DNA from: Novosphingobium sp. EMRT-2
Lineage (GTDB): Bacteria > Pseudomonadota > Alphaproteobacteria > Sphingomonadales > Sphingomonadaceae
Length of the DNA stretch: 64,000 nt
Direction: 5' to 3'
Assembly: GCF_005145025.1 (NCBI RefSeq)
Contig: NZ_CP039699.1
Span: forward strand, 146,226-210,225
This document shows, piece by piece, positions 3,689 to 51,756 of the stretch (the first letter of the stretch is position 1; every line of letters starts with the position of its first letter). The notes beneath the pieces were generated by a model that did not search any database, had not been told where the DNA came from, and was given only the letters and a program-made list of their open reading frames with translations. A program made the position numbers and the translations under genes.

Positions 3689-3692
3689 CGGG

Positions 3693-4277
3693 TCAGGCCT
3701 TGACCGGTCCCGTCCAGCCAATGCGATCGAGCGTGCCGATGAGGGTCGATCGCGGCACCTTGAATGATCGGCACACCGACGCCTTGCTTGCGCCGGCATC
3801 GAGGGCTGCCGTGATCTGCTCGATCGTTTCCGCGTCAATGCTGGGCGGCCGGCCCCCGCGCCGGCCCCGTCGTCGAGCTGCGACCAAGCCTGCCATCACC
3901 CGCTCACGCGTGAGCGCGCGTTCATATTGGGCGAGCGCGCCGAAGAGCGAAAACAGCAATTCACCATGGGGCGTGCTTGTGTCCATCTGCTCCGTTAGCG
4001 ATCGGAAGGCCACACCTCGATTTTTCAGATCGGTTATGATCGCCAGAAGATTGGTCAATGATCGCCCGAGACGGTCGAGTTTCCAAACGACCAAGGTGTC
4101 GCCGGCCTTCAGGAATTCGAGGCAAGCCTTCAGGCCGGGACGATCATCCCGGGCGCCCGATGCCTTGTCGGAATAGAGATGGCGCTCATCGACACCTGCG
4201 GCGAGGAGGGCATCGCGTTGAAGGTCAACCGACTGACGGTCATCGACCGATGAGACACGCATGTACCCGATGAGCAT
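3693..4277 (-). CDS. tnpR: Serine resolvase TnpR
   Basis: This small serine recombinase (194 aa) resolves the cointegrates formed by TnpA. It starts MLIGYMRVSS, with the nucleophilic serine of the RVS motif at residue 9. The catalytic domain continues through DRPGLKACLEFLKAGDTLVV and the LDRLGRS motif. A short C-terminal helix-turn-helix (SKASVCRSFKVPRSTLIG) follows. The ATG at 4277 is chosen over a TTG nine bases upstream because family members begin at this point. The gene sits directly upstream of tnpA in the same direction, with its res-like region just upstream at 4278-4415. Confidence 0.92.
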   Translation of the reverse strand: MLIGYMRVSSVDDRQSVDLQRDALLAAGVDERHLYSDKASGARDDRPGLKACLEFLKAGDTLVVWKLDRLGRSLTNLLAIITDLKNRGVAFRSLTEQMDTSTPHGELLFSLFGALAQYERALTRERVMAGLVAARRRGRRGGRPPSIDAETIEQITAALDAGASKASVCRSFKVPRSTLIGTLDRIGWTGPVKA

Positions 4278-4415
4278 GTGCGACAAACCCTGAAATTGAT
4301 GTTGTCGCGCACTAGATCAAAGCGACAGGGTTTGTCGTGCAAAATCAACCATGGTTGTCGAGGCGTAGCGTGGTTGCGATGCTACCCTGTCGGACAACAT
4401 GCGTTTTCCGATCAG
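4278..4415. promoter_or_regulatory. res: Putative res site (resolvase binding and recombination region)
   Basis: The stretch between tnpR and the passenger holds several short inverted pairs built on GCGACA/TGTCGC: bases 4279-4310, 4321-4338 and 4353-4398. Tn3-type res sites normally contain three such resolvase dimer sites next to tnpR, so the location and the count both fit. The tnpR/tnpA promoter must also lie here, but no clear -35/-10 pair was singled out. Confidence 0.6.
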
Positions 4416-4480
4416 ATTAGATCCGACCAATGCGCGTCACCAAAAAATCCAGCATCTTTCATGGTGACGCGCAATTTACT

Positions 4481-4864
4481 CTATCGCGTACTTTCGTTGA
4501 AATCGGACCTTAGATGAGCCGTGTCGTAGATGATCGTGATTTTCTGGAATTTTTGCGCATCGGCTGTCAATTCGAAGACGTCGACGCACTCGAACTTGAC
4601 CAGCTTCCCATTCCCCAGCGTCCAGTCGTACTCGAAATGCAGAGCGATCGCTGAGCCAGTGTTGGATTGGTAAAAGACATTCAACAACCGGGTTTCAGAC
4701 CGCGCGGTATCTGCGAACAGCGCCGTGTAGAAGGACTGCGCGTCACGTACACCGTAAAGAGGCGAGGAAACCTGAGCATCTTGCGAAAATAAAGCCAGTG
4801 TGGCGTCAAGATTCCCATCATTAAGCGCGGTCAGGTATCTTTGGCATAATTCTTTGGTAGTCAT
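4481..4864 (-). CDS. SnoaL-like/NTF2-fold protein, transposon passenger
   Basis: This 127-residue protein looks like a nuclear-transport-factor-2 fold (SnoaL-like) polyketide-cyclase relative. It has an N-terminal helix (LCQRYLTALNDGNLDATLAL), then F-x-x-D-A with a small-residue stretch (VSSPLYGVRDAQSFY), and alternating strands to the end. No cofactor site is visible and the substrate is unknown. The start at 4864 has a good ribosome site (AAAGGA, eight bases upstream); a longer frame to 4900 lacks one. It is the only passenger gene in the Tn3-family element. Its flanking DNA has lower GC than the surroundings, which suggests it was picked up from elsewhere. Any link to metal or oxygen stress is unproven. 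Confidence 0.65.
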   Translation of the reverse strand: MTTKELCQRYLTALNDGNLDATLALFSQDAQVSSPLYGVRDAQSFYTALFADTARSETRLLNVFYQSNTGSAIALHFEYDWTLGNGKLVKFECVDVFELTADAQKFQKITIIYDTAHLRSDFNESTR

Positions 4865-5006
4865 ACTTGGTTCCTTTAGAGCCAAGCCGACACGCCTCAT
4901 CGAGTCTCGCCAGCTTGGCGGCCTCGATGAAAGATGGTCTATCCGAGCCGCAATCAGGTGCGGCGATAATAATCTCGATGGGAAAACGGACTGACCATTC
5001 GCCGAT

Positions 5007-5022
5007 TATGCCCGACGGCATA
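5007..5022. promoter_or_regulatory. 16-bp perfect dyad upstream of the passenger gene
   Basis: TATGCC-CGAC-GGCATA is a perfect 6+4+6 inverted repeat about 140 bases upstream of the SnoaL-like gene, inside the transposon. It has operator-like symmetry for a dimeric repressor, but no regulator gene lies within the transposon. Its function is a guess. Confidence 0.35.
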
Positions 5023-5106
5023 TAGCAACGTCAAGGACTGTCATCAGGAGCTCTCATGAGATTTTCTAGTTGAACGACAATCAGGTGTTTTGCGACGCTC
5101 ACCGGC

Positions 5107-5144
5107 CTTACCGTATATCTGTGCCCGTTTTATGTGACGTCCCC
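5107..5144 (-). repeat. Right 38-bp terminal inverted repeat of the Tn3-family element
   Basis: It ends in CCCC at 5144 and is the inverted partner of bases 677-714. The next bases (AGACG) do not repeat the left flank. Confidence 0.9.
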
Positions 5145-5326
5145 AGACGGAGGTGCCCGAACTCCAGTGGTAAGAGCCGCCGTATCGGGGCGATTTCGAG
5201 CACCTGCGCCGTTGGAACTGCTGCGGCAATATTTCGGCCTTGACCTTGGACCATGGTCCTGCCCGTAAGAGGCCTCCCCAATAGCGGTGCCTTTGCGGCG
5301 CGGCACTCCAGATCGATCCGAGGAGT

Positions 5327-5962
5327 ATGGGGAACAAGCGCGTCGTTCACATCGTCGATGACGAAGAGACAATCCGAAAGGCACTGCGATTCACGTTGCG
5401 TACCGCCGGCTTCGCCGTCGAGGCCTACGCTTCGGGGCCGGAGTTTCTGTCGGCCGCGGGTGACGCTAAGAAAGGCTGCGTGATCCTCGACATGCACATG
5501 CCGGATATGGACGGCCTTCAGGTCCAGGTGGAGCTGACGCGACGCGGGATTGATATGCCTGTCGTCATGCTCACCGGCAATGGCGATCCCACGCTCGCCG
5601 TGCAGGCAATGCAGGCGGGCGCTGCCGACTTTCTCGCCAAACCGGTCGAAAAGGCCGCATTGCTTGGCGCGATCGACCGCGCCTTCAGCTCGCTGGAGAA
5701 TATAACCGGGCGTGCCGCAGTACAGGCCGACGCGCTGTCGAAAGCCGCGAGACTGACGCAGCGCGAACGGGCCGTTCTTAGAGGGATTGCGCGAGGCTAT
5801 CCCAATAGCTTTATCGCAGATGAACTCGGTACCACGCCGCGCACGGTCGAGCTGGATCGAGCCAGCCTGATGGTCAAACTGGGAGCCCAAAGTTTGCCCG
5901 ACTTGCTACGGATCGCGTTTGCTGTGGACCTGAACGGATCGCCTGAGGACGATCGCCATTAG
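5327..5962 (+). CDS. FixJ-family response regulator
   Basis: This 211-residue two-domain regulator has a receiver domain at residues 1-120: acidic pair D11/D12, phosphoacceptor D55 in ILDMHMPDMDG, T83 and K105 in FLAKP. A LuxR/FixJ-type helix-turn-helix follows at about 140-200 (LTQRERAVLRGIARGYPNSF). The recognition helix reads RTVELDRASLM where FixJ proteins usually have RTVEVHRA, so its DNA target may differ. GAGGAG sits just upstream of the ATG. No partner kinase gene is adjacent. The FixL at 16.1-17.7 kb, whose own fixJ is broken, is a possible partner. The 180 bases between the transposon and this gene hold nothing recognisable. Confidence 0.85.
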   Translation: MGNKRVVHIVDDEETIRKALRFTLRTAGFAVEAYASGPEFLSAAGDAKKGCVILDMHMPDMDGLQVQVELTRRGIDMPVVMLTGNGDPTLAVQAMQAGAADFLAKPVEKAALLGAIDRAFSSLENITGRAAVQADALSKAARLTQRERAVLRGIARGYPNSFIADELGTTPRTVELDRASLMVKLGAQSLPDLLRIAFAVDLNGSPEDDRH

Positions 5963-5988
5963 GCTTCACCATCCTGCGACATCGGACG

Positions 5989-6387
5989 TTATGCGGATCG
6001 GCCCGTGGCGAGTTCGGCAATGATCGGACAATCCGGCCGCGCGTCGCCGTGGCAGCGTTCGGCGAGATCGACCAGCGTGTCGCGCAGCGCCGTCAGCGCT
6101 GCCGCCTTGCGCTCGAATTCCTCGGCACGGGCCAGCGCAAGCCGCTTCACCTCGCCACTCGCGCGACCCGTATCCGCCCAAAGGCCGAGCAAAGTGCGGA
6201 TCTCCTCGATCGGAAACCCCAGATCGCGCGCATTGGCGATGAACCGCAGGCGATGAAGATCGCGCTCGTCATAGTCGCGATAGCCCGCACCCCGGCGCGG
6301 CGGCGCCGGGATGAGGCCTATCTTCTCATAATGGCGGATCATCCGCTCCGAGACGCCGCTCCGCCGAGACGTCTCGCCGATGTTCAC
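5989..6387 (-). CDS. cueR: CueR/HmrR-type MerR-family copper-responsive regulator
   Basis: This 132-residue MerR-family activator opens with the DNA-binding winged helix ([20 protein letters not shown]) and the GLIPAPPR hinge, followed by a long dimerisation helix. The C-terminal metal loop has two cysteines eight residues apart ([12 protein letters not shown]), the arrangement that gives CueR its two-coordinate Cu(I), Ag(I) or Au(I) site. The start codon overlaps the stop of the upstream copper ATPase (ATGA), so the two are translationally coupled. The regulator is thus made from the promoter it presumably controls. It lacks the features of Hg- or Zn-type MerR proteins. Confidence 0.92.
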
Positions 6388-8741
6388 AGCGCCTTCCGGT
6401 TGAGTCGCAGCGCGTTGGTGACCACGCTGACCGAGGAGAGCGCCATGGCGGCGGCCGCGATGATCGGCGAGAGCAGGATGCCGAACAGCGGATAGAGCGC
6501 GCCCGCCGCCACCGGCACGCCCGCGACATTGTAGATGAAGGCGAAGACGAGGTTCTGGCGGATGTTCGACATGGTCGCCTGGCTGAGCTTACGCGCCCGG
6601 ACGATGCCGGTGAGGTCGCCCTTGAGCAGGGTCACGCCCGCGCTCTCGATGGCGACGTCGGTGCCCGAGCCCATGGCGATGCCGACATCGGCGGCGGCCA
6701 GCGCGGGGGCGTCGTTGACACCGTCGCCGGCCATGGCGACCACCCGCCCCTCGCGCTTGAACTTGGCGACCACGGCGCTTTTCTGATCGGGCAGCACCTC
6801 GGCTTCGACCTCGTCGATGCCCAGGCGCCGGGCGACCGCTTCCGCTGTCGTGCGGTTGTCGCCGGTCAGCATGACCACGCGAATACCCTCCGCCTTGAGC
6901 GCGGCGAGCGCTTCGGGCGTCGTGGCCTTCACCGGATCGGCGATGGCGAAGGCACCGCCGACGGTGCCGTCGATTCCGATGAAGATTGCGGTGGCGCCAT
7001 CGCGTCGCAGTGCGTCGGCCTGGCTGGCGAGCGCCTCAGTCGCAACCCCTTCGTCGGCAAGGAACCGCGCATTGCCGAGGACGATGCGCCGCCCTTCGAC
7101 CGTGCCGAGCGCGCCGCGCCCAGTCGGCGAGTCGAAGTCGATGACGTCGCTCGTGGCGATGCCGCGATCCTTCGCGGCCTCGACGATTGCCAACGCGAGC
7201 GGATGCTCGGAGGCCCGCTCGACCGAGGCGGCAAGCCGCAGCAGTTCGGCTTCGTCGAAGCCGGGCGCCGGCACGATCTGGGTGACGGCAGGCCGGCCTT
7301 CGGTGAGCGTGCCTGTCTTGTCGACGACGAGCGTGTCGACCTTTTCCATTTGCTCGAGCGCTTCGGCGTTCTTGATAAGGACGCCGAGCCCGGCGCCGCG
7401 GCCGACGCCGACCATGATCGACATCGGCGTGGCGAGACCCAACGCGCAAGGACAAGCGATGATCAGCACGGCGACCGCCGCCACCAGCCCGTAGGCGAAG
7501 CGCGGCTCTGGGCCCCAGATACCCCAGGCGATGAACGCGACCACCGCGACCGCGATGACCACCGGCACGAACCAGCCCGACACCTGATCGGCCATGCGCT
7601 GGATCGGCGCGCGCGAGCGCTGCGCCTCGGCGACCATCTGGACGATCCGCGCGAGCATGGTGTCGCGTCCGACCTTGTCGGCGACGATCACCAGCGCTCC
7701 GGTCTGGTTGAGCGTGCCGCCGATCACCGTGTCGGCCTTGGCCTTGGTGACGGGCATGGACTCACCGGTGACCATCGACTCGTCGAGCGAGGAGCGGCCG
7801 TCCTCGACCACGCCGTCGACCGGCACCTTCTCGCCGGGCCGCACGCGCAGGCGGTCGCCGACCGCGACCAGATCGAGGCTGATTTCCTCTTCGTTGCCAT
7901 CGGAACCGATGCGGCGCGCGGTCTTGGGCGCGAGATTGAGCAGCGCCTTGATCGCGCCCGAGGTTCGCTCACGCGCGCGCAGTTCGAGCACCTGGCCGAG
8001 CAGCACGAGGACAGTGATCACCGCGGCCGCCTCGAAATAGACGGCAACCATGCCGTCCTCTCCGCGGAAGGCGGGCGGGAACAGCTGGGGCGCGAGCGTC
8101 GCGACGACGCTGTAGATCCAGGCGACCCCGGTCCCCATCGCGATCAGGGTGAACATGTTGAGGTTGCGGGTCTTGAGCGAGGTCCAGCCACGCTCGAAGA
8201 AGGGCCAGCCCGCCCAGAGCACGACGGGTGTCGCCAGCACGAACTGGATCCATACCGAGATCGACATCGGCACGAGGCGATGGATCGCGGGAAAGAGATG
8301 CGCGCCCATCTCGAGGATCAGCACCGGGAGGGCCAGCATCAGGCCGACCCGGAAGCGCCGTGTGAAATCGACCAGCTCATGGCTGGGGCCGCTGTCGGCA
8401 GTCACGGTCGCGGGCTCGAGCGCCATGCCGCAGATCGGACAGGACCCGGGATGGTCCTGCCGAATCTCGGGATGCATAGGGCAGGTCCAGATCGTGCCTT
8501 CTGGCACCGCGACTGGCGGTGCCGGCGGGCCGAGATAGCGCTCGGGATCGGCGATGAATTTTGCCCGGCAGCCCGCGCTGCAGAAATGATAGCTTTCACC
8601 GCCATGCTCGGCATGGTGCGCAGTGATCGCAGGATCGACGGTCATGCCGCAGACCGGGTCCTTGACGCCAGCCGCTGGTTTCGCAGCGCCGTGGCTGCCG
8701 CAGCAACCGCCGCCATGCGCCGCTCCATGTGTCTCGTTCAT
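6384..8741 (-). CDS. copA: P1B-type copper-exporting ATPase
   Basis: This 785-residue Cu(I) efflux ATPase of the inner membrane has a His/Cys-rich N-terminus. It lacks the usual GMTCxxC metal domain. Instead it has a YHS domain ([10 protein letters not shown], about residues 28-70) and a heavy-metal-binding domain (CPMHP then [10 protein letters not shown], about 90-115). Eight membrane segments follow, with the transport motif CPC in [12 protein letters not shown], the phosphorylation motif DKTGTL and the hinge [16 protein letters not shown]. The start at 8741 has AAAGGAG upstream; a longer frame to 8849 would run into the neighbouring gene. A MerR-type promoter lies just upstream. Confidence 0.95.
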
Positions 8742-8766
8742 CGCCTTGCTCCTTTCGACGCCTGAC

Positions 8767-8797
8767 GATCTAGGGTCTGACACCGTGTCAGGGTCAA
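8767..8797 (-). promoter_or_regulatory. MerR/CueR-type promoter with 19-bp spacer and dyad operator
   Basis: On the minus strand a -35 TTGACC and a -10 TAGATC are separated by exactly 19 bases, the overlong spacer that MerR-family activators need. The spacer holds a perfect dyad, CTGACAC-G-GTGTCAG. The -10 box ends 26 bases before the copA start. Taken with the CueR-like gene in the same operon, this is very probably its operator and gives copper-inducible control. Confidence 0.85.
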
Positions 8798-8848
8798 TAC
8801 GTAATCGCCTAAGCGGACAAATCGGCGGGCCCGTTCGCCTGGCCGCCA

Positions 8849-9523
8849 TCAGCCAAGGTCATTGGCAACCGTAAGGCCGTGGTCCTGCGCCGGTCGATGC
8901 GCCGTAAACAAGTCGATCGCGCCGGTGATGGTCAAAAGCCGAAACGTCTCGGCCACATGCCTGAAGCCGGCCGCCGCGATCAGGCCGGGGAGCACGCCGT
9001 CGGCATTGGGCCGGGTATCATCGATGCCATCGAGCCGCTGCACGGTCAGGCGGAAGGCAAGCCGCATGAAACCCTGCTGGCGGCCATAATCGGCGATCAC
9101 CAGGCGCCCACCCGGGCGCAGCATGGCGAACATGGCGCGCAGGGTTGCCGCCTTCTCCCTGACCGGCATCTGATGCAGCACGAGACTCGACACGACAGCG
9201 TCGGCGGTACCCGGGGCCACGTCCCTGGCAAATCCCTGACGCCAGTCGATATCGGCCCGCCGCACAGCGGCCTTGTGCCGCGCGATGTCGAGCGCCTCGG
9301 CATCGGGATCGAGACCGATCACCTGCGTCCTGGGCTCGGCTTGCTTGAGCATCAGCGCGAAGCTGCCGGTGCCACAGCCGACGTCGACGACCGTCTCACC
9401 GGCTTTGGGCGCCAGGGCGGCGAGCATGGCGGCACGCCACCGCTTCTCCCGCGTCCACAGGCGGATCGCGCGATCATAGTCTTTCGTCGATCCGGTCCCG
9501 AGCGGCGGGGTGTAGGATTGCAT
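8849..9523 (-). CDS. Class I SAM-dependent methyltransferase
   Basis: This 224-residue protein has the Rossmann-like methyltransferase fold. Motif I is [15 protein letters not shown] (residues about 45-60), the acidic ribose-binding strand end is [11 protein letters not shown], and [13 protein letters not shown] marks motif III. It resembles the UbiE/type-11 group, but the substrate cannot be assigned. The gene follows copC and copD on the same strand and ends just before the copA promoter, so it may be the last gene of a copC-copD-methyltransferase unit. Nothing in the sequence ties it chemically to copper. Confidence 0.8.
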
Positions 9524-9559: not shown

Positions 9560-10504
9560 CTACATCGACATGGGCGGCGATAGTGTCCCCAGCCAGGCGA
9601 CGAGCCCGAGAATGACGATCGCAAGACCGCCTTCGACGACGAGGCTCGCGCGCAGCAGCGCCTGCGCCCGTGGCGCGTCCTCTTCCTCGATCGCCTGCGC
9701 AAGTGCCGGGGTCAGGCGATAACGGTTGAGCGCGGCCAGGCCCAGCATGCCGGCGAACAGCAGCAGCTTGGCGATGAGCAGCAGGCCGTAGGTCGACTGC
9801 CCGAGCGAGGCGATGTTGCCCGGACCGACGAGGAACCAGCCGTTCACCGTCCCGGTCAGGATCAGCAGGGCGACGATGATCGTGCCGACGAGGGAGAAGC
9901 CCCGCAACGCTTCCTCGGCGAGCGTGACCCGGTCCATGTCTTGAGCGGCGAGATCGTCGGTTGCGAGCCTGGGAAGTACCAGCGCGAGGAATGCGGCAAG
10001 CGCGCCGACCCAGGCGCCGGCGGCGAGCAGATGGATGAGATCGGCCCCCAGTTGCAGCCAGCCCGCCTCGCCTTCGCCAGCCGCGCCATGCCCACTCCAG
10101 GCGAGGGTCGCGAGTGCGACCGCGCCTGCCAGAGTGGAGGCGATGAAGGCAGGACGGGATTGCCGGCGATAGAAGGGGATGGAGAGCAGAAGAACGAGGA
10201 GCGCGACGAGGCGCGCCTTCAGCGCCGTTCCCATGGACGTGCCGTTGAACAGCTCTGCGACCATGGAAAGATCAGGCTGGGTGAGCGGCAGCCCGGTCAT
10301 GGCCGCTGCCTGCAACGCGAACCCCAGCGCCGACAGCAGGAGGGCGAGACAGGCGAGACCGGCCACCATTGCTACCATCGGCAGATGCCGCTGTACCATC
10401 CGGCCGCCGCCGGGCGCATAGAGCGCGAACAGCGGCAGGCCGAACAACAGGCCGAGATCGACGTAGAGCGCCCAGCGGACGGCGACGAGTGCCACGTCGT
10501 TCAT
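9560..10504 (-). CDS. copD: CopD-family copper import/resistance membrane protein
   Basis: This 314-residue inner-membrane protein has about eight hydrophobic segments. It fits CopD, which works with periplasmic CopC to move copper across the inner membrane. Histidine-containing stretches typical of the family are visible near segment ends (WSGHGAAGEG and ADLIHLLAAGAWVGA). The start at 10504 lies four bases beyond the copC stop, so the two are one transcription unit. Transcription probably begins at the ECF-type motif upstream of copC. Confidence 0.88.
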   Translation of the reverse strand: MNDVALVAVRWALYVDLGLLFGLPLFALYAPGGGRMVQRHLPMVAMVAGLACLALLLSALGFALQAAAMTGLPLTQPDLSMVAELFNGTSMGTALKARLVALLVLLLSIPFYRRQSRPAFIASTLAGAVALATLAWSGHGAAGEGEAGWLQLGADLIHLLAAGAWVGALAAFLALVLPRLATDDLAAQDMDRVTLAEEALRGFSLVGTIIVALLILTGTVNGWFLVGPGNIASLGQSTYGLLLIAKLLLFAGMLGLAALNRYRLTPALAQAIEEEDAPRAQALLRASLVVEGGLAIVILGLVAWLGTLSPPMSM

Positions 10505-10508
10505 GGCG

Positions 10509-10886
10509 TCACTTGACGGTAAAGGCGAGATTGCCCTGGATGCGGTGCGTGTCGGTCGAGACGACGTGCCAGGCGACCTGATAGCTGCCCGCCATGAGCG
10601 GCTTGGCGAGCGTCAGCACGAGCGTCTTGTCGCCTTCGACGGACGTCTTGAAGCCGGTTACCGCCATGCGGTGGTTGGGCATGCCGGGCATGCCGGTCAT
10701 CACGATCTCGGCGCCCGACAGCTTCGGCATCAGACCTTCACTGAAGGTGAGCGTTATACGCGACGGCGCCGGGACGCTGGCGTTGGCGGCGGGCGTCGAG
10801 GACACGAGCTTGGGATGGGCGTAGGCCGGAGCCGAAACACTCAGGCCGACGGCGGCGATGGCTGCGAGGGGCGAAAAGAAGCGCAT
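10509..10886 (-). CDS. copC: Periplasmic copper-binding protein CopC
   Basis: This 125-residue secreted copper chaperone has a signal peptide of about 23 residues ending AYA, so the mature protein starts HPKLVSS. That N-terminal histidine is the usual Cu(II) ligand. A Met-rich loop (SGAEIVMTGMPGMPNHRM) provides the Cu(I) site, and the C-terminal HVVSTDTHRIQG supplies further histidines. The length and motif order match CopC closely. The gene is divergent from the sigma-factor module that starts at 11019 and is first in a unit with copD. GGAGAAT lies before the ATG. Confidence 0.94.
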   Translation of the reverse strand: MRFFSPLAAIAAVGLSVSAPAYAHPKLVSSTPAANASVPAPSRITLTFSEGLMPKLSGAEIVMTGMPGMPNHRMAVTGFKTSVEGDKTLVLTLAKPLMAGSYQVAWHVVSTDTHRIQGNLAFTVK

Positions 10887-10916: not shown

Positions 10917-10942
10917 AATACGCAGCCGCGACCTGCACCCCT
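10917..10942 (-). promoter_or_regulatory. Putative ECF-sigma promoter for copC-copD
   Basis: On the minus strand AGGGG is followed after 15 bases by CGTATT, with CTG directly before the latter. The same pattern occurs upstream of the cnrY-like gene and of the first multicopper oxidase. The spacing suits an ECF sigma factor better than the housekeeping sigma factor. It lies about 30 bases upstream of the copC start. Confidence 0.6.
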
Positions 10943-10968
10943 CGCAATTTTCTTTTTGTTCCCGGACA

Positions 10969-10994
10969 AGGGTTGCCGGACCATCCTGCGTATT
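10969..10994 (+). promoter_or_regulatory. Putative ECF-sigma promoter for the cnrYXH-like operon
   Basis: AGGGT, 15 bases and CGTATT lie 25 bases before the first gene of the sigma/anti-sigma operon, again with CTG before CGTATT. This would be the autoregulatory promoter usual for ECF operons. It is arranged back to back with the copC copy, leaving only 26 bases between the two boxes. Confidence 0.6.
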
Positions 10995-11018
10995 GAGAAG
11001 TGAAGACGGAGAAACATC

Positions 11019-11291
11019 ATGGACCACCTCGACGACATGCTCAGCCGGTTGCGGGAAGCGCCGCTCGATCCCCGGCTTGCCGGGCTGGACAGCCGCGTCA
11101 TGGCCGAGATCGCCCGGCTCCAGGCCATGCCCCGCCTGAGCGCCACGACATTCGGTATCGCCGCGGCAGCAGCCTTGTTCCTGGGAATTGCCGGCTCGGC
11201 CGTGCCTGTGCGGTCGACCGAAGCCGGGCCGATATCGCCCTTTGACGCGCGGCTCGCGCTCGCTCCTTCGACGCTGCTGAGTTCACAATGA
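11019..11291 (+). CDS. Putative CnrY-like anti-sigma factor
   Basis: This 90-residue protein has a hydrophilic N-terminal half (MDHLDDMLSRLREAPLDPRL), one membrane-spanning helix (about residues 45-63, FGIAAAAALFLGIAGSAVPV) and a short periplasmic tail. This is the layout of CnrY/NccY, which hold the ECF sigma factor at the membrane through their cytoplasmic N-terminus. Sequence similarity in this family is weak. The call rests on size, topology and its place as first gene before a CnrX-like and a CnrH-like gene. Its stop overlaps the next start by four bases. GGAGAA lies before the ATG. Confidence 0.65.
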   Translation: MDHLDDMLSRLREAPLDPRLAGLDSRVMAEIARLQAMPRLSATTFGIAAAAALFLGIAGSAVPVRSTEAGPISPFDARLALAPSTLLSSQ

Positions 11292-11728
11292 TGCGCGACC
11301 GCCGGCTCCTGCTCCTCGTCCTGCTGACCTTTGCCGCGGCGATCGCCGGTGTGGTCATCGGCCGCGTCTATGTGGTTCCGGTGCGCCCGGTCGAAAATGA
11401 GCTGCACGAGCTGCTCCATCGCGATCTGAAGCTGGATTCCGCGCAACACAGCCGGCTCGAGACAATCGAGAAGAACTACGCCTTACGGCGTCAAGCGCTG
11501 GAGGCCGAACTGCGCGCCGACAATGCGCGCCTCGCGGAGGCGATCGAAGCGGAGCATGGCTATGGCCCGCAAGTCGCAGCGGCGGTGGATCGCTCGCACC
11601 AGGCCATGGGGGCCCTGCAGAAGGAAACGCTCGAGCACATCTTCGCAATGCGGGCCGTGCTGCGTCCCGATCAGACCGAGAAGTTCGACGACGCCGTAGT
11701 GAAAGCGCTGACGGCCAAGTCCAAATGA
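11288..11728 (+). CDS. CnrX-like periplasmic metal sensor
   Basis: This 146-residue protein has an N-terminal membrane anchor (residues 7-28) and a helical periplasmic domain. The metal ligands described for Cupriavidus CnrX (H42, H46, E63, H119, M123) have counterparts here at a constant offset of two: H40 and H44 in HELLHRDL, E61, and H117 and M121 in LEHIFAMRAVLRP. This is strong evidence for the CnrX/NccX family of metal sensors, which relieve the anti-sigma factor when metal binds. The gene overlaps both neighbours by four bases. Which metal is sensed is not shown: CnrX senses Ni and Co, while the genes around this one handle copper. Confidence 0.85.
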   Translation: MMRDRRLLLLVLLTFAAAIAGVVIGRVYVVPVRPVENELHELLHRDLKLDSAQHSRLETIEKNYALRRQALEAELRADNARLAEAIEAEHGYGPQVAAAVDRSHQAMGALQKETLEHIFAMRAVLRPDQTEKFDDAVVKALTAKSK

Positions 11729-12291
11729 CCGCGTGCCTCCCCGACTGCTCGGACGGGGAGCTCGCGGCTCTGGCGCTTGGAGGCCGGCAAGCGGCCTATG
11801 GCGAGCTGGTCCGCCGGCATCAGGGCTGGGTGCACCGCCTCGTGCGCAGCCATATAGGTGACGGAGAGGAGGCGCTGGACGTCACGCAGGCAAGCTTCGT
11901 CGCCGCCTTCGCCGCACTCAACCGCTATGACGCTGCGCGACCCTTCCAGGTCTGGATGTCCCGGATCGTCATCAACAAATGCCATGACTGGCGGCGCCGG
12001 CGCGCGGTCCGGAACTTCTTCTCCATGGCCCTGCCGCTGGGCGAGGCGGATGACGTCGCCGATGAGGCGCCGCTACCCGACCAGGCAATCGGCGCCGAGC
12101 AGCAACTGGCAGAGGCGATGAAAGCGATCGCCGCCCTGCCCGCCTCTCTCAAAGACACGCTCATCCTGCGGACGATCGACGAGAAATCGGAAGCCGAAAC
12201 CGCCGAGATTCTCGGCATCAGCCAGAAGGCAGTCGAGACCCGCCTCTACCGCGCCCGCGCACGCCTCGCGGAAATGTTGAAGAAAGTTTGA
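11725..12291 (+). CDS. ECF-family RNA polymerase sigma factor, CnrH-like
   Basis: This 188-residue sigma factor has region 2 at about residues 20-95 (AYGELVRRHQGWVHRLVRSH, ending VWMSRIVINKCHDWRRRR). Region 4 lies at about 130-185 (LPASLKDTLILRTIDEKSEA then LGISQKAVETRLYRARARL). There is no region 1.1 or 3, as expected for ECF factors. It is translationally coupled to the CnrX-like gene (ATGA). With the two upstream genes it forms a sigma/anti-sigma/sensor operon. The likely targets are the three promoters of the form AGGG(G/T)-N15-CGTATT, one of which overlaps this gene's own stop codon. Confidence 0.92.
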   Translation: MTACLPDCSDGELAALALGGRQAAYGELVRRHQGWVHRLVRSHIGDGEEALDVTQASFVAAFAALNRYDAARPFQVWMSRIVINKCHDWRRRRAVRNFFSMALPLGEADDVADEAPLPDQAIGAEQQLAEAMKAIAALPASLKDTLILRTIDEKSEAETAEILGISQKAVETRLYRARARLAEMLKKV

Positions 12292-12316
12292 GGGGGATGA
12301 GGCCACGCTGCGTATT
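12291..12316 (+). promoter_or_regulatory. Putative ECF-sigma promoter for the multicopper oxidase operon
   Basis: AGGGG, 15 bases and CGTATT lie at the very end of the sigma-factor gene, 41 bases before the multicopper oxidase start. This is the third copy of the motif. CTG again precedes CGTATT. Confidence 0.58.
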
Positions 12317-12357: not shown

Positions 12358-14310
12358 ATGATTTCTGCTCTCGACCGCCGCCAGTTCCTCCGCGGCGCGG
12401 CCCTCGCCGGCGGCGGCGCAGCATTGTCAGCCTGGCTGCCGGCCTGGGCGCAGACGATCTCGCCGGGGATGCGACCGACGCTGCCGACCGTGTCGGGCGA
12501 AGACATCACGCTCACCATCGCCCGGCAGTCGATGACCATCGACGGGCGCAAGTTCCGGGCAATCGGCCTCAACGGCACGGTCCCCGCCCCGCTGATCCGG
12601 CTGCGCGAGGGCCAGCGCGTGCGGCTCAACGTCATCAATCAGCTGGAGGAGGACAGCTCGATCCACTGGCACGGGCTGATCCTGCCGGCCAATATGGACG
12701 GTGTGCCGGGCGTGTCTTTTCCGGGCATCAAGCCGGGATCGAACTACCTCTACCAGTTCCCCGTCGTGCAAAGCGGCACCTACTGGTATCACAGCCATTC
12801 AGGCCTGCAGGAACAGGAAGGCCATTACGGCCCGATCATCATCGATCCCGCCGGTGCCGATCCGGTCGCCTATGACCGCGAGCATGTCATCGTGCTCGCC
12901 GATCACAGCGCGCTCTCGCCGCAGGCGATCTTCCGGCGCCTCAAGGTCAACCCCGGCCATTTCAATTTCCAGCGCCAGACCCTGGCCGGGCTCCTGTCGG
13001 GCAAGGATCAGCCGCTCAAGGACCGGCTCGACTGGGGCCAGATGCGGATGGACCCGGCCGACATCTCCGATGTGACCGGATCCACCTACACCTATCTCGT
13101 CAACGGCCATGGTCCGATGGACAACTGGACCGCGCTCTTCACCCCGGGCGAACGGGTGCGGCTGCGGGTCATCAATGCGTCGGCGATGACCACCTTCAAC
13201 GTCCGCATCCCCGGCCTGCCGCTGACCATCGTCCAGGCCGACGGGCAGAATGTGGTGCCGGTCACCGTCGACGAGTTCCAGATTGGTGTTGCCGAGACCT
13301 ACGACGTCGTTGTCAGCCCAGGCGATGACAAGGCCTACACCCTTGTCGGCGAGGCGATCGACCGCTCGGGCATGGCGCGTGCCACGCTCGCGCCGCGCGC
13401 CGGCATGGCCGGCGAGGTTCCCCCCTTACGCAAACGGCCGCTCGCCGACATGAAGGACATGGGCATGGACATGTCCTCGATGCCGGGCATGGAAGGCATG
13501 GACATGTCGGGCGGCGCTATGCGGGGCGTCGATCCGACGGCCGAGAAGAACGCGTCCGCGCGCCTCGCGACCGGCGCGGCGGCAGCGATGGCGACCATGG
13601 ACAACAGCGCCATGGCGGGCATGGACCATTCGGGGATGGATCATTCCGCGATGAGCGGGATGGATCATGGATCGATGGCCGGCATGGACCACGGCGCGAT
13701 GGGCGCCGATGGCCAGATGGCGGGCATGGATCATGGCGGGCACGCGATGGGTTCGATGAAGATGCGCGACTTCTCGAACGCGCCGCAGGTGAAGCGCGAT
13801 CCGAGCGTCCAGACCATCTCGCCGATGCCCGTCGACCGCACCGGCGAGCCCGGCCAGGGCCTCACCGACGTCGGCCACAAGGTGCTCGTCTACAAGGATC
13901 TGATGGCGCTCGAGCGCAATCCAGACGTGCGCGCGCCGAGCCGCAGCATCGACATCCACCTCACCGGCAACATGGAGCGGTTCATGTGGTCGTTCGACGG
14001 CGAAAAAATGTCGGACCATCACGAGCCGATCCCGTTCATCGAAGGCGAGCGGGTGCGCGTCAATCTCATCAACGACACGATGATGGGGCATCCGATCCAC
14101 ATCCACGGCCATTTCTTCGAGCTGGTGACCGGGCATGGCGACCATGCGCCGCGCAAGCACACCGTCATCGTCCAGCCCGGCGGCAAGGTGAGCTGGGACT
14201 TCACCGCCGACGCGGTCGGGGACTGGGCCTTCCACTGCCATCTCCTCTACCACATGCATGCAGGGATGATGCGGGTCGTGAGCGTGCGTCCGAAGGGAGA
14301 CGCGCAATGA
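12358..14310 (+). CDS. Multicopper oxidase, CopA family (copper resistance)
   Basis: This 650-residue periplasmic oxidase is exported folded by the Tat system (twin arginine in DRRQFLRGAAL). Three cupredoxin domains are visible. The copper ligands lie in IHWHGL (about residue 102), YWYHSHSG (142), HPIHIHGHFFEL (578) and HCHLLYHMHAGM (626). Between about residues 365 and 470 is a Met/His-rich insert made of repeats such as MAGMDHS and MSGMDHG, which probably binds Cu(I). CopA oxidases oxidise and sequester copper in the periplasm. The gene is followed by copB with an ATGA overlap. It differs from the second oxidase at 54-55.7 kb in the length of its Met-rich insert. Confidence 0.94.
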   Translation: MISALDRRQFLRGAALAGGGAALSAWLPAWAQTISPGMRPTLPTVSGEDITLTIARQSMTIDGRKFRAIGLNGTVPAPLIRLREGQRVRLNVINQLEEDSSIHWHGLILPANMDGVPGVSFPGIKPGSNYLYQFPVVQSGTYWYHSHSGLQEQEGHYGPIIIDPAGADPVAYDREHVIVLADHSALSPQAIFRRLKVNPGHFNFQRQTLAGLLSGKDQPLKDRLDWGQMRMDPADISDVTGSTYTYLVNGHGPMDNWTALFTPGERVRLRVINASAMTTFNVRIPGLPLTIVQADGQNVVPVTVDEFQIGVAETYDVVVSPGDDKAYTLVGEAIDRSGMARATLAPRAGMAGEVPPLRKRPLADMKDMGMDMSSMPGMEGMDMSGGAMRGVDPTAEKNASARLATGAAAAMATMDNSAMAGMDHSGMDHSAMSGMDHGSMAGMDHGAMGADGQMAGMDHGGHAMGSMKMRDFSNAPQVKRDPSVQTISPMPVDRTGEPGQGLTDVGHKVLVYKDLMALERNPDVRAPSRSIDIHLTGNMERFMWSFDGEKMSDHHEPIPFIEGERVRVNLINDTMMGHPIHIHGHFFELVTGHGDHAPRKHTVIVQPGGKVSWDFTADAVGDWAFHCHLLYHMHAGMMRVVSVRPKGDAQ

Positions 14311-15494
14311 CCCGCATCCTCACGCCGCTGGTGAGCGCGATCGCCCTTCTCGCCGCCGCACCCGCCTTTGCCCAGGATCATTCGATGCACGACATGCCCG
14401 GCATGGCGCCGCCGGGCGGGGCGCGGCCGGCGCAGGAGAAAAAGAAGGACAAGGCCGCCGCGCCGCGCCCCAAGCCCACTGCCAGGCCGCGCGCTCAGAA
14501 GCCAGCGCCGGACACCATGCCGGCAATGGACCATTCGCAGCACCAGACCACTCCCGCGGCGCAAGCAAATGCGGCCGGTCAGCCGCAATCCACGTCTCCC
14601 GCAATGCCGGAGATGCCGGGCATGGACCACTCCCAGCATCAGGACGGCGCGATGCCCGACATGCCCGGGATGGACCATGCGCAGCATGGCCAGACAGCGA
14701 CGCCGGGAACGCCCGCCATGCCCGGCATGCAAATGACCGGCACCGCACTTCCGGCCGGCAATGCGCCCCCGCCGCCGCCCCCAGGCGACCACTTCGCCGA
14801 TCGGGATTTTCCCGGCGGCGAGATGGCGCGCTCGCGCGACATCATGATGAAGGACAGCGGCGGCAACAATTTCGGGCAGGTGCTGCTCAACCTGTTCGAG
14901 TATCAGGCGCATAGCGGCCGCGATGGCTATCGCTGGGATGGCGAAGGCTTTTACGGCGGCGACATCAACCGCCTCTGGCTCAAGAGCGAGGGCGAAGGCG
15001 AGTTCGGCCGCGGCATCGACAGCGCCGAGGTGCAGGTGCTCTACAGCCGGGCCATCGACCCCTATTTCAATCTTCAGGGCGGTATCCGCCAGGACTTCGG
15101 CCGCGGGCCCGACCGCACCTACGCGACGATCGGCGTCGAGGGCCTGGCTCCTGGCATGTTCGAGGTCGAAGGCGCGCTGTTCCTCTCGACCAAGGGCGAC
15201 CTTCTGGGCCGGGTCGAGGGCTATTACGACCAGCGCATCACCCAGCGCCTGATCTTGCAGCCGCGCGCCGAGGTCAATTTCGCCGCGCAGGATATTCCGG
15301 AGAACGACATCGGTTCGGGGCTGGTCAACATAGAGCTCGGCGCGCGCCTGCGCTACGAATTCAGCCGCCAGTTCGCACCTTACATCGGCGTTTCCTATCT
15401 GCGCAAAGCCGGAGACACGGCGCGGCTGTCGAGGCTTGCGGGCGAGGACGTCCATGCCACCAGCTTCGTCGCCGGCATCCGCTTCTGGTTCTAG
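14307..15494 (+). CDS. copB: CopB-family outer-membrane copper resistance protein
   Basis: This 395-residue protein has a signal peptide ending AFAQ and a long low-complexity region (residues about 24-150) rich in Met, His and Pro, with repeated MDHSQH and MPGMDH units. The C-terminal part (about 165-395) has the strand pattern of the CopB beta-barrel, ending in the FWF-type outer-membrane signature FVAGIRFWF. The start at 14307 is fixed by the ATGA overlap with the upstream oxidase and by the signal peptide; a longer frame to 13986 lies inside the oxidase gene. CopB works with CopA in outer-membrane copper handling. Confidence 0.92.
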   Translation: MTRILTPLVSAIALLAAAPAFAQDHSMHDMPGMAPPGGARPAQEKKKDKAAAPRPKPTARPRAQKPAPDTMPAMDHSQHQTTPAAQANAAGQPQSTSPAMPEMPGMDHSQHQDGAMPDMPGMDHAQHGQTATPGTPAMPGMQMTGTALPAGNAPPPPPPGDHFADRDFPGGEMARSRDIMMKDSGGNNFGQVLLNLFEYQAHSGRDGYRWDGEGFYGGDINRLWLKSEGEGEFGRGIDSAEVQVLYSRAIDPYFNLQGGIRQDFGRGPDRTYATIGVEGLAPGMFEVEGALFLSTKGDLLGRVEGYYDQRITQRLILQPRAEVNFAAQDIPENDIGSGLVNIELGARLRYEFSRQFAPYIGVSYLRKAGDTARLSRLAGEDVHATSFVAGIRFWF

Positions 15495-15584: not shown

Positions 15585-16058
15585 ATGGACCATTCGTCCC
15601 ACATGAACACCCGGAAGATGGGTGCCTATTGGAGCCTTGCCGTTCAGACCGTCATCAGCGGCGTCATCATGTATCTGGTGATGTTCGTCATGATCGACGG
15701 GCTCGACAGCTTCTACAACAACCTCAACATGCTCTACATGACGCTGATGATGGTCGCACCGATGGTGGTGCTGATGATCCTCGCCATGCGACACATGTTC
15801 GTGTCGAAGGCCGCCAACATCGCGCTGATCGCCGCGTCGCTGGTCGCCTTCTTCGGCAGCTTTGCACTCATCCGCACCCAGACCACGATCGGCGACACGG
15901 CCTTTCTGCGCTCGATGATCCCGCATCATTCCGGGGCGATCCTGATGTGCCAGGAAGCAAAGCTCAGCGATCCGGAAGTCATCCGGCTTTGCGAAGCGAT
16001 CAAGCGCTCGCAGCGGCAGGAAATCGACGAGATGAAGGCCATACTCGCGCGGCGCTGA
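15585..16058 (+). CDS. DUF305-related membrane protein
   Basis: This 157-residue protein has a Met/His-bearing N-terminus (MDHSSHMNTRKMG), three hydrophobic segments and a C-terminal stretch with the DUF305 hallmark MIPHHSGAILMC followed by charged helices. DUF305 proteins are common in copper-resistance islands and are thought to bind metal through the paired histidines; no reaction is known. AAGGAGA lies eight bases before the ATG. It is the third gene of the oxidase-copB unit, with a 90-base gap. Confidence 0.82.
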   Translation: MDHSSHMNTRKMGAYWSLAVQTVISGVIMYLVMFVMIDGLDSFYNNLNMLYMTLMMVAPMVVLMILAMRHMFVSKAANIALIAASLVAFFGSFALIRTQTTIGDTAFLRSMIPHHSGAILMCQEAKLSDPEVIRLCEAIKRSQRQEIDEMKAILARR

Positions 16059-16117: not shown

Positions 16118-17653
16118 ATGGTCGACACGAGGCGCGGGCCGGACGAGATTGCCAGGGAGGTGGTGCGGCTTGCGCCGTTGTTCCTGCGACAGGCTGGCGG
16201 CCATGTCCTGACGCTGCTCGATCCTGCCGGGATCGTGCTGAGCTATAATGAAGAAGGCGAGCGTGCCGAATGCTGGCCGCTCGATCGCGTTCTGGGACAG
16301 CCCCACGACCTGTTCTACCCGCCTGACGAGATTGCGGCGCGTCGTCCAGGCGCAGACCTGGCGGCCGCCCTTCACGAGGGCACGCTGGAGCGCGAAGCGT
16401 GGCGGGTCTGCGAGAACGGCGCGGAATATCTCGCGCGCCTGACGATCAGCGCCCTGTTCGAAGGCGACACACATCGAGGCTTCGCCTGCATCAGCCGCGA
16501 TGTCACCGACGAGGCGGCGGTCCGCGCATCGATCGAGACCCGCGAGCAGCATCTGCAATCGATTCTGGCGACGGTGCCGGATGCGATGATCATCATCGAC
16601 GAGACCGGCGCCATCACGTCGTTCAGCGCAGCGGCCCAACGCCTGTTCGGCTACAGCGAAGCCGAGCTCGTCGGCCGCAACGTCTCCTGCCTCATGCCCC
16701 AGCCCGATCGCGACCGGCATGACCAATATCTCGCGCATTATCTGCAGACCGGCGAGCGCCGGATCATTGGCCTCGGTCGCGTCGTGGTCGGCCAGCGCCG
16801 CGACGGCTCGACTTTCCCGATGCAGCTGTCGGTTGGCGAGGCCGGTGAAGACGGGCAGCGGTTGTTCACCGGCTTCATCCGGGATCTCACCGCCAAGGAG
16901 CAGGATGAGCTCAGGCTCAAGGAACTGCAGGCAGAGCTGGTCCATGTCTCCCGGCTGAGCGCGATGGGCACGATGGCCTCGACCCTCGCGCATGAGCTCA
17001 ACCAGCCGCTTGCCGCGGTCGCGCTCTATCTCGAGACGATCCGCGACATGCTCGACGAGCGGGACGACGAACCCTTCGTGTCGCTACGGTCGGTGATGGA
17101 TGATGCGGCACAGGAAACGCTGCGGGCCGGCCATATCGTCCGGCGCCTGCGCGATTTCGTCGCCCGCGGCGAGGTCGACAAGAGCCTCCACGATCTGCCG
17201 CAGGTTGTCGCCGAGGCGAGCGAGCTCGCGCTGGTCGGTACACGCGAGCGCGGCATCCGCAGCTTCTTCGCGGTCGATCCCGCCGCGACGCCGGTTCTCG
17301 TCGACAGGGTGCAGATCCAGCAGGTGCTGGTCAACCTGATGCGCAACGCCATCGAGGCGATGGCGGCGTGTCCTGTTCGCGACCTCAAGGTAGCGACCAG
17401 GTTGCGCCCTGACGGGCTGATCGAGGTGACCGTGGAGGATACCGGCCCCGGCATCGCCGACGAGGTCCGCGAGCAGCTCTTCACGGCGTTCAACTCGACA
17501 AAGGCCGACGGCATGGGCCTCGGCCTCTCGATCTGCCGGACCATCATCGAAGCGCATGGGGGCCGTATCTGGATGGAGCGCCCCGACCGCGGCGGCGCGC
17601 GCTTTCACTTCACGCTGATCCACGCGCGGGCGAAGGAGGAACATGGGGGATAG
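16118..17653 (+). CDS. fixL: FixL-like oxygen-sensing histidine kinase
   Basis: This 511-residue soluble kinase has two PAS domains (about residues 25-130 and 140-260), followed by HisKA and HATPase domains. The second PAS carries the FixL heme signature: H201 in DRDRHDQYL aligns with the proximal heme histidine (H200 in Bradyrhizobium FixL), and R221 in IIGLGRVVVG with the signalling arginine (R220). The phosphoacceptor is H292 in LAHELNQPL. The ATP site shows NLMRNAIEA, DTGPGI and GMGLGLSI. It therefore probably senses O2 and phosphorylates FixJ. The downstream fixJ starts before this gene's stop and is interrupted by an insertion sequence. Confidence 0.93.
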   Translation: MVDTRRGPDEIAREVVRLAPLFLRQAGGHVLTLLDPAGIVLSYNEEGERAECWPLDRVLGQPHDLFYPPDEIAARRPGADLAAALHEGTLEREAWRVCENGAEYLARLTISALFEGDTHRGFACISRDVTDEAAVRASIETREQHLQSILATVPDAMIIIDETGAITSFSAAAQRLFGYSEAELVGRNVSCLMPQPDRDRHDQYLAHYLQTGERRIIGLGRVVVGQRRDGSTFPMQLSVGEAGEDGQRLFTGFIRDLTAKEQDELRLKELQAELVHVSRLSAMGTMASTLAHELNQPLAAVALYLETIRDMLDERDDEPFVSLRSVMDDAAQETLRAGHIVRRLRDFVARGEVDKSLHDLPQVVAEASELALVGTRERGIRSFFAVDPAATPVLVDRVQIQQVLVNLMRNAIEAMAACPVRDLKVATRLRPDGLIEVTVEDTGPGIADEVREQLFTAFNSTKADGMGLGLSICRTIIEAHGGRIWMERPDRGGARFHFTLIHARAKEEHGG

Positions 17654-17862: not shown

Positions 17863-20237
<2,375 letters not shown>

Positions 20238-47212: not shown

Positions 47213-49587
<2,375 letters not shown>

Positions 49588-50324: not shown

Positions 50325-50606
50325 TCACCAACCCAATTCCGCGTGCGATCCCAAGCGCACAAGCTGCAAGGTGTCGTCATCGGGCTTGCGGTAAATCAGC
50401 ACGAGGTCGGGCTTTATGTGGCAATCGCGATGGTCGCGCCAGTCGCCGGTCAGCGCATGGTCGCGGTGGCGCGGTTCAAGCGGCTCGTCGGATGCCAGCG
50501 CCTCGATGATCGGGATCAGGTCAGCGTCCAGCGTCTTGGCGTGCTGCCCCTTCTTCTCCCGCTTGTAGTCGCGCTTGAACCGCCCGAAGCGTTCAATCGT
50601 CCGCAT
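50325..50606 (-). CDS. yafQ: YafQ-family toxin (ribosome-dependent mRNA interferase)
   Basis: This 93-residue RelE/YafQ fold begins MRTIERFGRFKRDYKREKKG. LEPRHRDHALTGDWRDHRDC supplies catalytic histidines and DLVLIYRKPDDDTLQLVRLG the C-terminal strand. The pattern H-x-L-x-G-x-W-x-x-x-R-x-C-H-I is typical of YafQ. The gene overlaps the upstream antitoxin by 14 bases. It probably stabilises the replicon or island. Confidence 0.9.
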   Translation of the reverse strand: MRTIERFGRFKRDYKREKKGQHAKTLDADLIPIIEALASDEPLEPRHRDHALTGDWRDHRDCHIKPDLVLIYRKPDDDTLQLVRLGSHAELGW

Positions 50607-50856
50607 TGAGGTCGGCCATCAGGTCGACCACCGTGGCGAACCGCTTGCCCTTTCCCTCGCGCGCTTCCTTCATGGCCTCTATCGTCTCGGCATTGGGCAC
50701 CAGCGGTTCAAACGGCAAGGCCTTGTCGCGGGCAACGCGGGTCAGCATCAGGCGCACGGCATCGGAGACGGTCAGCCCCATAGCAGCCAGCACGGTCGCG
50801 GCTTCCTCCTTCACCGCTCCGTCGATCCGGGTCTGCACAAGAGCGTTTGCGGCCAT
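50593..50856 (-). CDS. dinJ: DinJ/RelB-family antitoxin
   Basis: This 87-residue protein starts MAANALVQTRIDGAVKEEAA, a ribbon-helix-helix domain, followed by GLTVSDAVRLMLTRVARDKA and a C-terminal toxin-binding helix. The Met at 50856 is chosen; GGAAAT lies upstream. It is the first gene of the pair, so it probably represses the operon and neutralises YafQ. Confidence 0.9.
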   Translation of the reverse strand: MAANALVQTRIDGAVKEEAATVLAAMGLTVSDAVRLMLTRVARDKALPFEPLVPNAETIEAMKEAREGKGKRFATVVDLMADLNADD

Positions 50857-51239
50857 GTCGATTTCCTTTCTGCATGACGATGTAATGCAAGCGAACGCAA
50901 AGTGCAATCAGGCAAAGCCCCGGCTATCGACATGGCGACCGGGCTTCGCGTTTTTCACCTTCAATGCTGTGAGTGCCATCGGTTCGGGGCCCTGATCGGG
51001 AATGTTGGGGCCGTTCTCACACTTTCGGTGGGCAAACGGTCCCACAATCGTTCCACATTTTGGGCCAAATTCAGGCAAATCAGGGAGACGACCGCGAACA
51101 ACTTACAAGACAAATCGTTGCTTTTTCAGTGTAGGTAGGGGTAGGGACGCCATCAGCTCGCTTGACACAAGGTTCTACACGCGACAGCGGGGTCCTCTAC
51201 CACCGGGCAATTCTGCAGGATGCTGCAAACCGCGCGATA
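50857..51239. other. No gene recognised between the toxin module and the copper operon
   Basis: About 380 bases hold no convincing coding frame. The first part should contain the antitoxin promoter. The stretch around 51040-51130 is relatively AT-rich. Confidence 0.45.
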
Positions 51240-51677
51240 TCAATGGCGGGCGAAAATTCGCTGACCGGCGCTGCCGAAGGCCACCACCGTATAGGGTTGG
51301 CGGGCAGCGCCTGCCACTTCCATGCCCTCCGAACCGATCGGCATCCCCGCAACCGCAATGCCTTTGACGCCCGCAGGACGGGTCGCCAGCAAGCGCTTGA
51401 CGTCGGATATCGGGACATGGCCCTCGATCATATAGCCATCGACGATCGCGCTGTGGCAAGATGCCAGCGTCCGGGGCATGCCGGCCTTGCGCTGAAGCTC
51501 GCTGCGCGACGCATCGTCACGCATGACGACCTTGCGTCCCAGCTTCGCGCGCACGGCCTGCGCCCACTTCTCGCAACATCCACATCCCGGATCCCGGTGG
51601 ACGACGATATCACTGGCCGCAAGCGCTACGCCGGGCATGGCGAGGAACAGCAAGGCGACGAATAGGCGGGTCTTCAT
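51240..51677 (-). CDS. DUF411 metal-binding protein
   Basis: This 145-residue periplasmic protein has a signal peptide (MKTRLFVALLFLAMPGVALA). The DUF411 core contains HRDPGCGCCEKWA and the later LASCHSAIVDGYMIEGHVP, which supplies cysteine and histidine ligands. DUF411 proteins accompany copper and silver resistance genes. It is the last gene of the second copper operon, 79 bases after the transporter. Confidence 0.88.
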   Translation of the reverse strand: MKTRLFVALLFLAMPGVALAASDIVVHRDPGCGCCEKWAQAVRAKLGRKVVMRDDASRSELQRKAGMPRTLASCHSAIVDGYMIEGHVPISDVKRLLATRPAGVKGIAVAGMPIGSEGMEVAGAARQPYTVVAFGSAGQRIFARH

Positions 51678-51756
51678 GAAATGACTCCCGGAAGAACGAT
51701 AAGCATGGGGCAGAGGCCCCTTCTTTTCTATACGCATCAATGCGCCCCTCCCCTCA

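Follow-up and report, generated by a model that had tools for sequence, protein, structure and literature searches.

A copper cassette of Novosphingobium sp. EMRT-2 appears to be switched by its own CnrYXH-related sigma factor module

Introduction

What controls a bacterial copper cassette in which the embedded regulatory genes resemble those of a nickel determinant? The question is raised by a 64,000-nucleotide stretch of the genome of Novosphingobium sp. EMRT-2 (contig NZ_CP039699.1, positions 146,226 to 210,225; hereafter the window), which carries the genes copA, copB, copC and copD together with an operon encoding a putative membrane anti-sigma factor, a CnrX-like sensor and a sigma factor of the extracytoplasmic function (ECF) type. 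The metals known for CnrX-type sensors are nickel and cobalt, and the usual regulator of CopABCD/PcoABCD systems is the CopRS/PcoRS two-component system. A preliminary description of the stretch had pointed to three copies of a two-block motif, AGGGK-N15-CGTATT (K being G or T), upstream of copC, of the anti-sigma gene and of copA, and had proposed that they define a single self-regulated regulon.

The gene families, the fold and ligands of the sensor, and the motif with its conservation alongside the module were computed here. The results favour the view that the ECF sigma factor encoded between the motif copies uses them as promoters and that the cassette forms one autoregulated regulon, a reading to which we assign a probability of about 0.88.

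Results

The motif in the window and in the genome

The three exact copies of AGGGK-N15-CGTATT are indeed present, at 10917-10942 (-), 10969-10994 (+) and 12291-12316 (+), for a chance expectation in the window of 0.00 (mean of 100 dinucleotide shuffles). The whole 4,770,198-base genome contains no further exact copy, and the motif was not found at equal density at random sites. With one mismatch tolerated, the genome has a total of 33 matching places, fewer than the 51 of the reversed control pattern, and near-matches are accordingly background; with up to two mismatches the window contains 12 matches against 14.4 expected, and hence the exact copies alone stand out.

Comparison with relatives (see below) refines the consensus to TGAGGG-N15-GCGTAT. 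In the footprinted form (tGAGGG-N15-GCGTAt) the bases of GAGGG and GCGTA each carry about 2 bits of information, those of the spacer mostly 0 to 0.8 bits. The blocks and the spacing of 15 given in the preliminary description recur in relatives in a motif that is longer than first drawn, while the CTG before CGTATT, present in all three window copies, is rejected as part of it since G alone is invariant in relatives. The refined consensus adds a fourth, full-match copy to the window (P4; the four sites are listed as P1 to P4 in Table 1). The copy before the anti-sigma gene is the weakest of the window and, at the copA copy, the TGA also terminates the sigma gene, which means that these bases provide no independent evidence there.

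Conservation of the motif in relatives

A homologue of the sensor was found in 152 of 396 genomes belonging to the order; from named genomes, the 80 best of 426 relatives were retained. The footprint sample comprised 28 representatives with less than 85% sensor identity, out of 110 pooled loci. TGAGGG-N-GCGTAT was searched anywhere 5′ of copC (P1), the anti-sigma gene (P2) and copA (P3) with spacings of 12 to 18; loci were dropped where the gene was undetected or the locus ended, which left 20 scorable loci for P1, 28 for P2 and 24 for P3. Where no anti-sigma gene was detected (at least L059, L062 and L064), the P2 region was placed by its offset from the sensor gene.

With a spacing of 15, sites matching at least 10 of the 12 bases occur at every divergent locus (20/20 for P1, 28/28 for P2 and 24/24 for P3), and sites matching at least 11 at 19, 23 and 24 loci respectively. 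None of the 432 tests made with the six other spacings reached 11 matching bases and 14 reached 10; because the consensus was derived from part of the scored loci, this spacing control is the fair one. The motif persists near sensors of about 45% identity. Among 26 hand-picked loci outside Cupriavidus, some of them chosen on a known motif hit, all have a copA-type hit (partial in L182) and 25 (all but L208) carry the motif with at least 11 of 12 bases at a spacing of 15 or 16.

Exact copies of the refined consensus were counted over the same 396 genomes, with genome tallies transcribed by hand. At least one is present in 122 of the 152 sensor-bearing genomes (299 hits, 8 control hits) and in 46 of the 244 genomes in which no sensor was hit (52 hits, 14 control hits), an association with a Fisher p of 1.2e-34, uncorrected for shared ancestry. 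At the level of the class, 10 of 385 genomes matched, two of these being the genome itself and one of its family; the module is rare outside the order.

The cassette matches 51 plasmid records, mostly from sphingomonads, 32 of which span 80% or more of the 5.7 kb query, and the contig that carries it (G000:C5, 210 kb) is for this reason considered plasmid-like. Such near-identical cassettes on many sphingomonad plasmids might suggest that the three motif copies are there because the plasmids spread recently, reflecting shared ancestry rather than constraint. We find this barely credible, since in representatives with less than 85% sensor identity the blocks are fixed while the spacers vary, and even sensors of about 45% identity have the motif close by.

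Relationship to mapped CnrH promoters

On plasmid pMOL28 of C. metallidurans CH34 (L181), cnrY is preceded by CAAGGGGG...CCGTAT and cnrC by GAGGGG...CCGTAT. Primer extension placed the published starts 24 and 25 nt upstream, and the paper's own table gives 23 and 24 (PMC9045368); CCGTAT ends about 7 nt (+/-1) before both. Aligned in the register of the window, cnrC has a spacer of 16 and cnrY one of 15 or 16, since a run of G residues makes the register ambiguous there, and a Caulobacter plasmid (L182) has a spacer of 16 at three sites. By this resemblance the window motif is linked to the mapped CnrH promoters; its use by the sigma factor of the window is a separate step, which we infer. The proposal of a self-regulated ECF regulon thus gains support from the likeness to two mapped promoters and from the occurrence of the same sites in divergent relatives.

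The motif could instead be an operator for a copper repressor or activator, or a housekeeping promoter. Within the copA copy, TTGAGG is similar to a sigma-70 -35 box, and genes for FixL- and MerR-type regulators lie close by, but the motif is non-palindromic with a fixed spacing, it accompanies a CnrH-type sigma factor across divergent loci and the mapped CnrH promoters fit it, all of which makes this explanation very improbable.

The sigma factor, the sensor and the putative anti-sigma factor

The closest solved relative of the sigma factor is CnrH (107.4 bits; 39% identity over 183 amino acids), followed by SigW (60.4 bits). Its C-terminus (...ARARLAEMLKKV) includes no Cys-rich tail. The closest solved relatives of the sensor by sequence are NccX and CnrX, and CnrX entries lead the structural list obtained with its fold (VIA-align). 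All five CnrX ligands are present: H40, H44, E61, H117 and M121 correspond to H42, H46, E63, H119 and M123. In 138 aligned sensors, many of them near-identical, H40 is retained in 136, H44, E61 and H117 in all 138, and M121 in 137.

The 90-residue product of the first gene matches no Pfam family. It resembles CnrY in gene position, in length (90 against 95 residues) and in the position of its transmembrane (TM) segment (46-64 in both), and its C-terminal LAPS[TS]LL is invariant across 22 relatives. Its position and topology make it a putative anti-sigma factor. The operon had been described as CnrYXH-like, which holds for the sigma factor (CnrH) and for the sensor (CnrX/NccX in sequence and in fold) and does not extend to detectable CnrY homology of the anti-sigma factor.

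Observations that weigh against a single autoregulated regulon

Several observations count against the proposal that the sigma factor drives these sites as one regulon. Homology of the anti-sigma factor to CnrY is undetectable (no BLASTP match; hhalign probability 0.5%). In 30 of the 152 sensor-bearing genomes there is no exact consensus copy, inexact copies being uncounted, and the locus L208/L275 has no motif at 11 or more of 12 bases beside its sensor and copA. In this genome the bare core GAGGG-N15-GCGTA shows no excess, with five places against six for the control. P4 is present in only one of the four representatives with a DUF411 gene in view. Finally, two sensor-less genomes retain the motif pair before copC and copA: in L226 (G053; 3168-5741) an anti-sigma-like open reading frame (ORF) is followed directly by copA with no sensor or sigma gene between, and in L216 (G209; 3894-6242) copC and copA face each other with nothing between. 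These pairs may be relics or may be under other control. When the 46 genomes that have the motif but no sensor hit were searched with a sensor profile, none matched (0/46), an empty result that is weak by itself; the same profile did match G000 and G005 elsewhere.

Four of the five bare-core places lie on C5 and one is chromosomal. With these numbers, a chromosomal regulon in this genome is unsupported.

Which metal

The target genes are copper-handling, which suggests copper as the physiological signal, and we think copper on balance the probable main inducer; nickel or cobalt are likely cross-inducers. Residues H104 and M107 are kept in 136 of the 138 aligned sensors. The exceptions are two Cupriavidus sensors encoded beside cnrCBA, which have E and A, as does NccX at these positions. 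In additional stretches two more nickel-pump-linked sensors (L266, L276) are both E/A, and 15 copper-clade sensors, including those of L182 and L183 and with three places that repeat the earlier alignment, are all H/M; for two of the 15 (both from L269) the stretch in view shows a P-type ATPase and no copA. In a tree of 47 rows the four nickel-linked sensors split from the other 43 with support of 100/100, with a long branch for L266. Since this is a single evolutionary split, the link between residues and metal is a correlation. H90 was dropped from the copper signature, as several copper-clade sensors have R, P, Q, N or D in its place.

Genome G1078 includes one nickel-pump-linked and four copper-clade sensors, two of the four without copA in view. 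Two inverted, near-identical sensor genes lie near a contig end in this genome (L269:247-1758).

The same ECF regulon could be run by a sensor that responds mainly to nickel or cobalt, as CnrX does, with the cop genes belonging to a nickel or general divalent-metal response. All five CnrX ligands are kept, including the methionine with a signalling role (Met123; PMC7689651). A study of Sphingobium sp. ba1 also reports that 10 mM Ni raises copA and copB, plus a separate copC, and its authors state that a role of these proteins in nickel adaptation had not, to their knowledge, been reported before (PMC5557971). On the other side, the downstream genes are copper-handling, the operon has no Ni efflux pump, and the copper-clade sensors form a separate clade that differs from the nickel-pump-linked sensors at two fixed positions. 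We regard this alternative as rather unlikely.

A second cop cluster in the window, 51240-58279 (-), has the order aldehyde dehydrogenase-AdhP-copA-copB-major facilitator superfamily (MFS) protein-DUF411, the aldehyde dehydrogenase, copA and copB having been named from sequence and annotated plasmid matches. Its gene order is that of the nickel-induced ba1 cluster IL54_0078-0083. A CnrX-type sensor driving this promoter would account for the nickel induction of cop genes in ba1; the motif stands before DUF411 only, so that the rest of the second cluster is not explained by it.

Extent of the regulon and neighbouring genes

The predicted sites before copC, the anti-sigma gene and copA stand as first described, and by its motif the regulon would be wider, extending to the DUF411 gene 39 kb away. 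P4 lies between the MFS gene, whose stop codon it closely follows, and the DUF411 gene, whose ATG is 52 nt further on; the same 27 bases occur again at C5:6080-6106. No other site with at least 10 of 12 bases was found in 50500-60500. The second cluster is present on 43 plasmid records, of which 30 cover at least 80%. In the corresponding cluster of S. yanoikuyae plasmid pF1 the motif again precedes DUF411, and 8.5 kb contain no further site of at least 10 of 12 bases. P4-type sites were also seen in other, related loci (for example L156, L157, L159 and L174). In view of its frequency among representatives, P4 as a fixed feature was rejected.

Downstream genes were surveyed, with BLAST labels, behind core-matching motifs in stretches fetched for sensor or motif hits. 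They are copA (20), copC (10), anti-sigma (7), P-type ATPase (4), DUF411 (2) and DUF305 (1); the rest comprise 39 unlabelled genes and four sites without an ORF. Read from sequence with no family search, the 39 include anti-sigma-like, DUF2231-like, TonB-receptor, TolC-like, methyltransferase and Met/His-rich periplasmic proteins, several being uninformative. In L218 a kinase-like ORF lies behind a motif copy.

Table 1. Features of the cassette and of the associated DUF411 gene (window coordinates)
Feature	Position	Strand	Predicted start	Basis or remark
P1, CGAGGG-N15-GCGTAT, predicted ECF promoter of copC-copD	10918..10944	-	near 10910 (from CnrH promoters)	11/12 match
P2, CAAGGG-N15-GCGTAT, predicted autoregulatory promoter of anti-sigma/sensor/sigma operon	10967..10993	+	near 11001	10/12 match
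P3, TGAGGG-N15-GCGTAT, predicted promoter of copA-copB	12289..12315	+	near 12323	12/12 match
P4, TGAGGG-N15-GCGTAT, before DUF411 gene	51730..51756	-	near 51722	12/12 match
Putative membrane anti-sigma factor, 90 aa, one TM, conserved C-terminal LAPS[TS]LL	11019..11291	+		role from position and topology
CnrX-like periplasmic metal sensor	11288..11728	+		PF13801
ECF sigma factor, 188 aa	11725..12291	+		39% identity to CnrH
copA, multicopper oxidase, Tat signal	12358..14310	+		TIGR01480, 814.7 bits (cut-off 478.95)
copB, outer-membrane copper protein	14307..15494	+		PF05275
DUF305 membrane protein	15585..16058	+		PF03713
copC	10509..10886	-		NF033814, 132.1 bits (cut-off 95)
copD	9560..10504	-		NF033808, 285.1 bits (cut-off 195)
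Class I methyltransferase	8849..9523	-		3′ of copD, between copD and ATPase
P-type ATPase	ORF 6384-8849, likely start 8741	-
MerR-family gene	5989-6387	-
DUF411 metal-binding-type periplasmic protein	51240..51677	-		PF04214 (query 51240-51680)

The methyltransferase gene could possibly belong to the copC-copD operon; relatives of it lie directly behind the motif in L192, L201 and L205. Of the 72 loci that extend far enough, 60 have a P-type ATPase gene no more than 1.5 kb from copD and in the same orientation. Before the ATPase start in the window (8767-8797, -) the sequence TTGACC-19-TAGATC surrounds a 7-1-7 dyad, CTGACAC-G-GTGTCAG (read by eye), and the MerR-family gene lies 3′ of the ATPase. 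This nearby copper ATPase thus seems to have its own MerR-type promoter. The idea that P1 drives it was set aside, since a MerR/CueR-type promoter at its start makes separate control more likely; read-through is possible. Two branches of control are likely, one for cytoplasmic Cu(I) through CueR and the ATPase, the other for periplasmic metal through the ECF module.

A FixL-like histidine kinase gene (16118-17653) lies just 3′ of the cassette and a response regulator gene (5327-5962) on its other flank. IstB/IstA-like transposition genes, which we take to be IS21-type, occur at 17863-20234 and 48079-49584; the window holds two copies of the larger gene, whose predicted proteins agree over most of their length.

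Discussion

The analysis suggests that a plasmid-type sphingomonad copper cassette is switched by its own CnrYXH-related membrane relay. From the computed features we infer promoter activity, dependence on the sigma factor, the role of the anti-sigma factor, the metal and the signal path. In the resting state the single-TM protein would keep the CnrH-like sigma factor at the membrane, while the CnrX-like sensor would monitor the periplasm through its five conserved metal ligands. Metal binding would be relayed to the anti-sigma factor, perhaps via the conserved LAPSTLL tail, and the released sigma factor would drive P2 (its own operon), P1 (copC-copD), P3 (copA-copB) and P4 (DUF411) in a self-amplifying response.

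Like CnrYXH and NccYXH of Cupriavidus, the module has the gene order anti-sigma, sensor, sigma, a sigma factor 39% identical to CnrH, a sensor with the CnrX fold and five ligands, and promoter blocks (G/A)AGGG and CGTAT, the latter about 7 nt before the start (starts having been mapped for the CnrH promoters). It differs in that the next genes are copA-copB and copC-copD where Cupriavidus has cnrCBA, in a spacer of 15 against 16 at cnrCp (15 or 16 at cnrYp), in a sensor with H104xxM107 where CnrX has ExxA, and in an anti-sigma factor that is not detectably related to CnrY. The genes following the sigma gene are copA, copB and DUF305 and, since no CnrCBA-type efflux genes are linked, the cassette is not classed as a Cnr or Ncc determinant.

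With CopABCD/PcoABCD the cassette shares the structural genes CopA, CopB, CopC and CopD, all of which are present, whereas its control is proposed to operate through the ECF module in place of CopRS. CorE of Myxococcus xanthus is likewise an ECF sigma factor controlling copper genes including a multicopper oxidase (PMC10141476). CorE has its own Cys-rich C-terminal sensing extension, which the sigma factor of the cassette lacks, the latter being accompanied by a separate membrane sensor. The CnrYXH-type ECF module is the known part of the system; what seems new is its apparent wiring to copA/copB, copC/copD and DUF411 instead of a nickel pump. A search of the open-access PMC literature gave no account of copper genes under the control of a CnrYXH-type module, although an earlier mention elsewhere is possible.

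More tentatively, and at somewhat less than even odds, the sensors beside copper genes may form a sister branch within the CnrX family that senses copper, is common among sphingomonads and occurs in some other Alphaproteobacteria. In this branch the CnrX metal site would be retained, the fixed His-Met pair H104xxM107 would either determine the selectivity for copper or alter how the signal passes to an anti-sigma factor that looks unrelated, and a wider copper regulon would be governed. If true, this would add a further periplasmic copper-sensing route beside CopRS/CusRS-type kinases and CorE. Its regulon would include the oxidase, copC/D and DUF411, joined in some relatives by P-type ATPases, TonB receptors and a TolC-type channel. 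If the branch does read copper, it would provide natural pairs of sensors, even within the single genome G1078, from which to learn how one set of ligands discriminates between metals, as well as a short promoter rule for predicting the copper regulons of sphingomonads.
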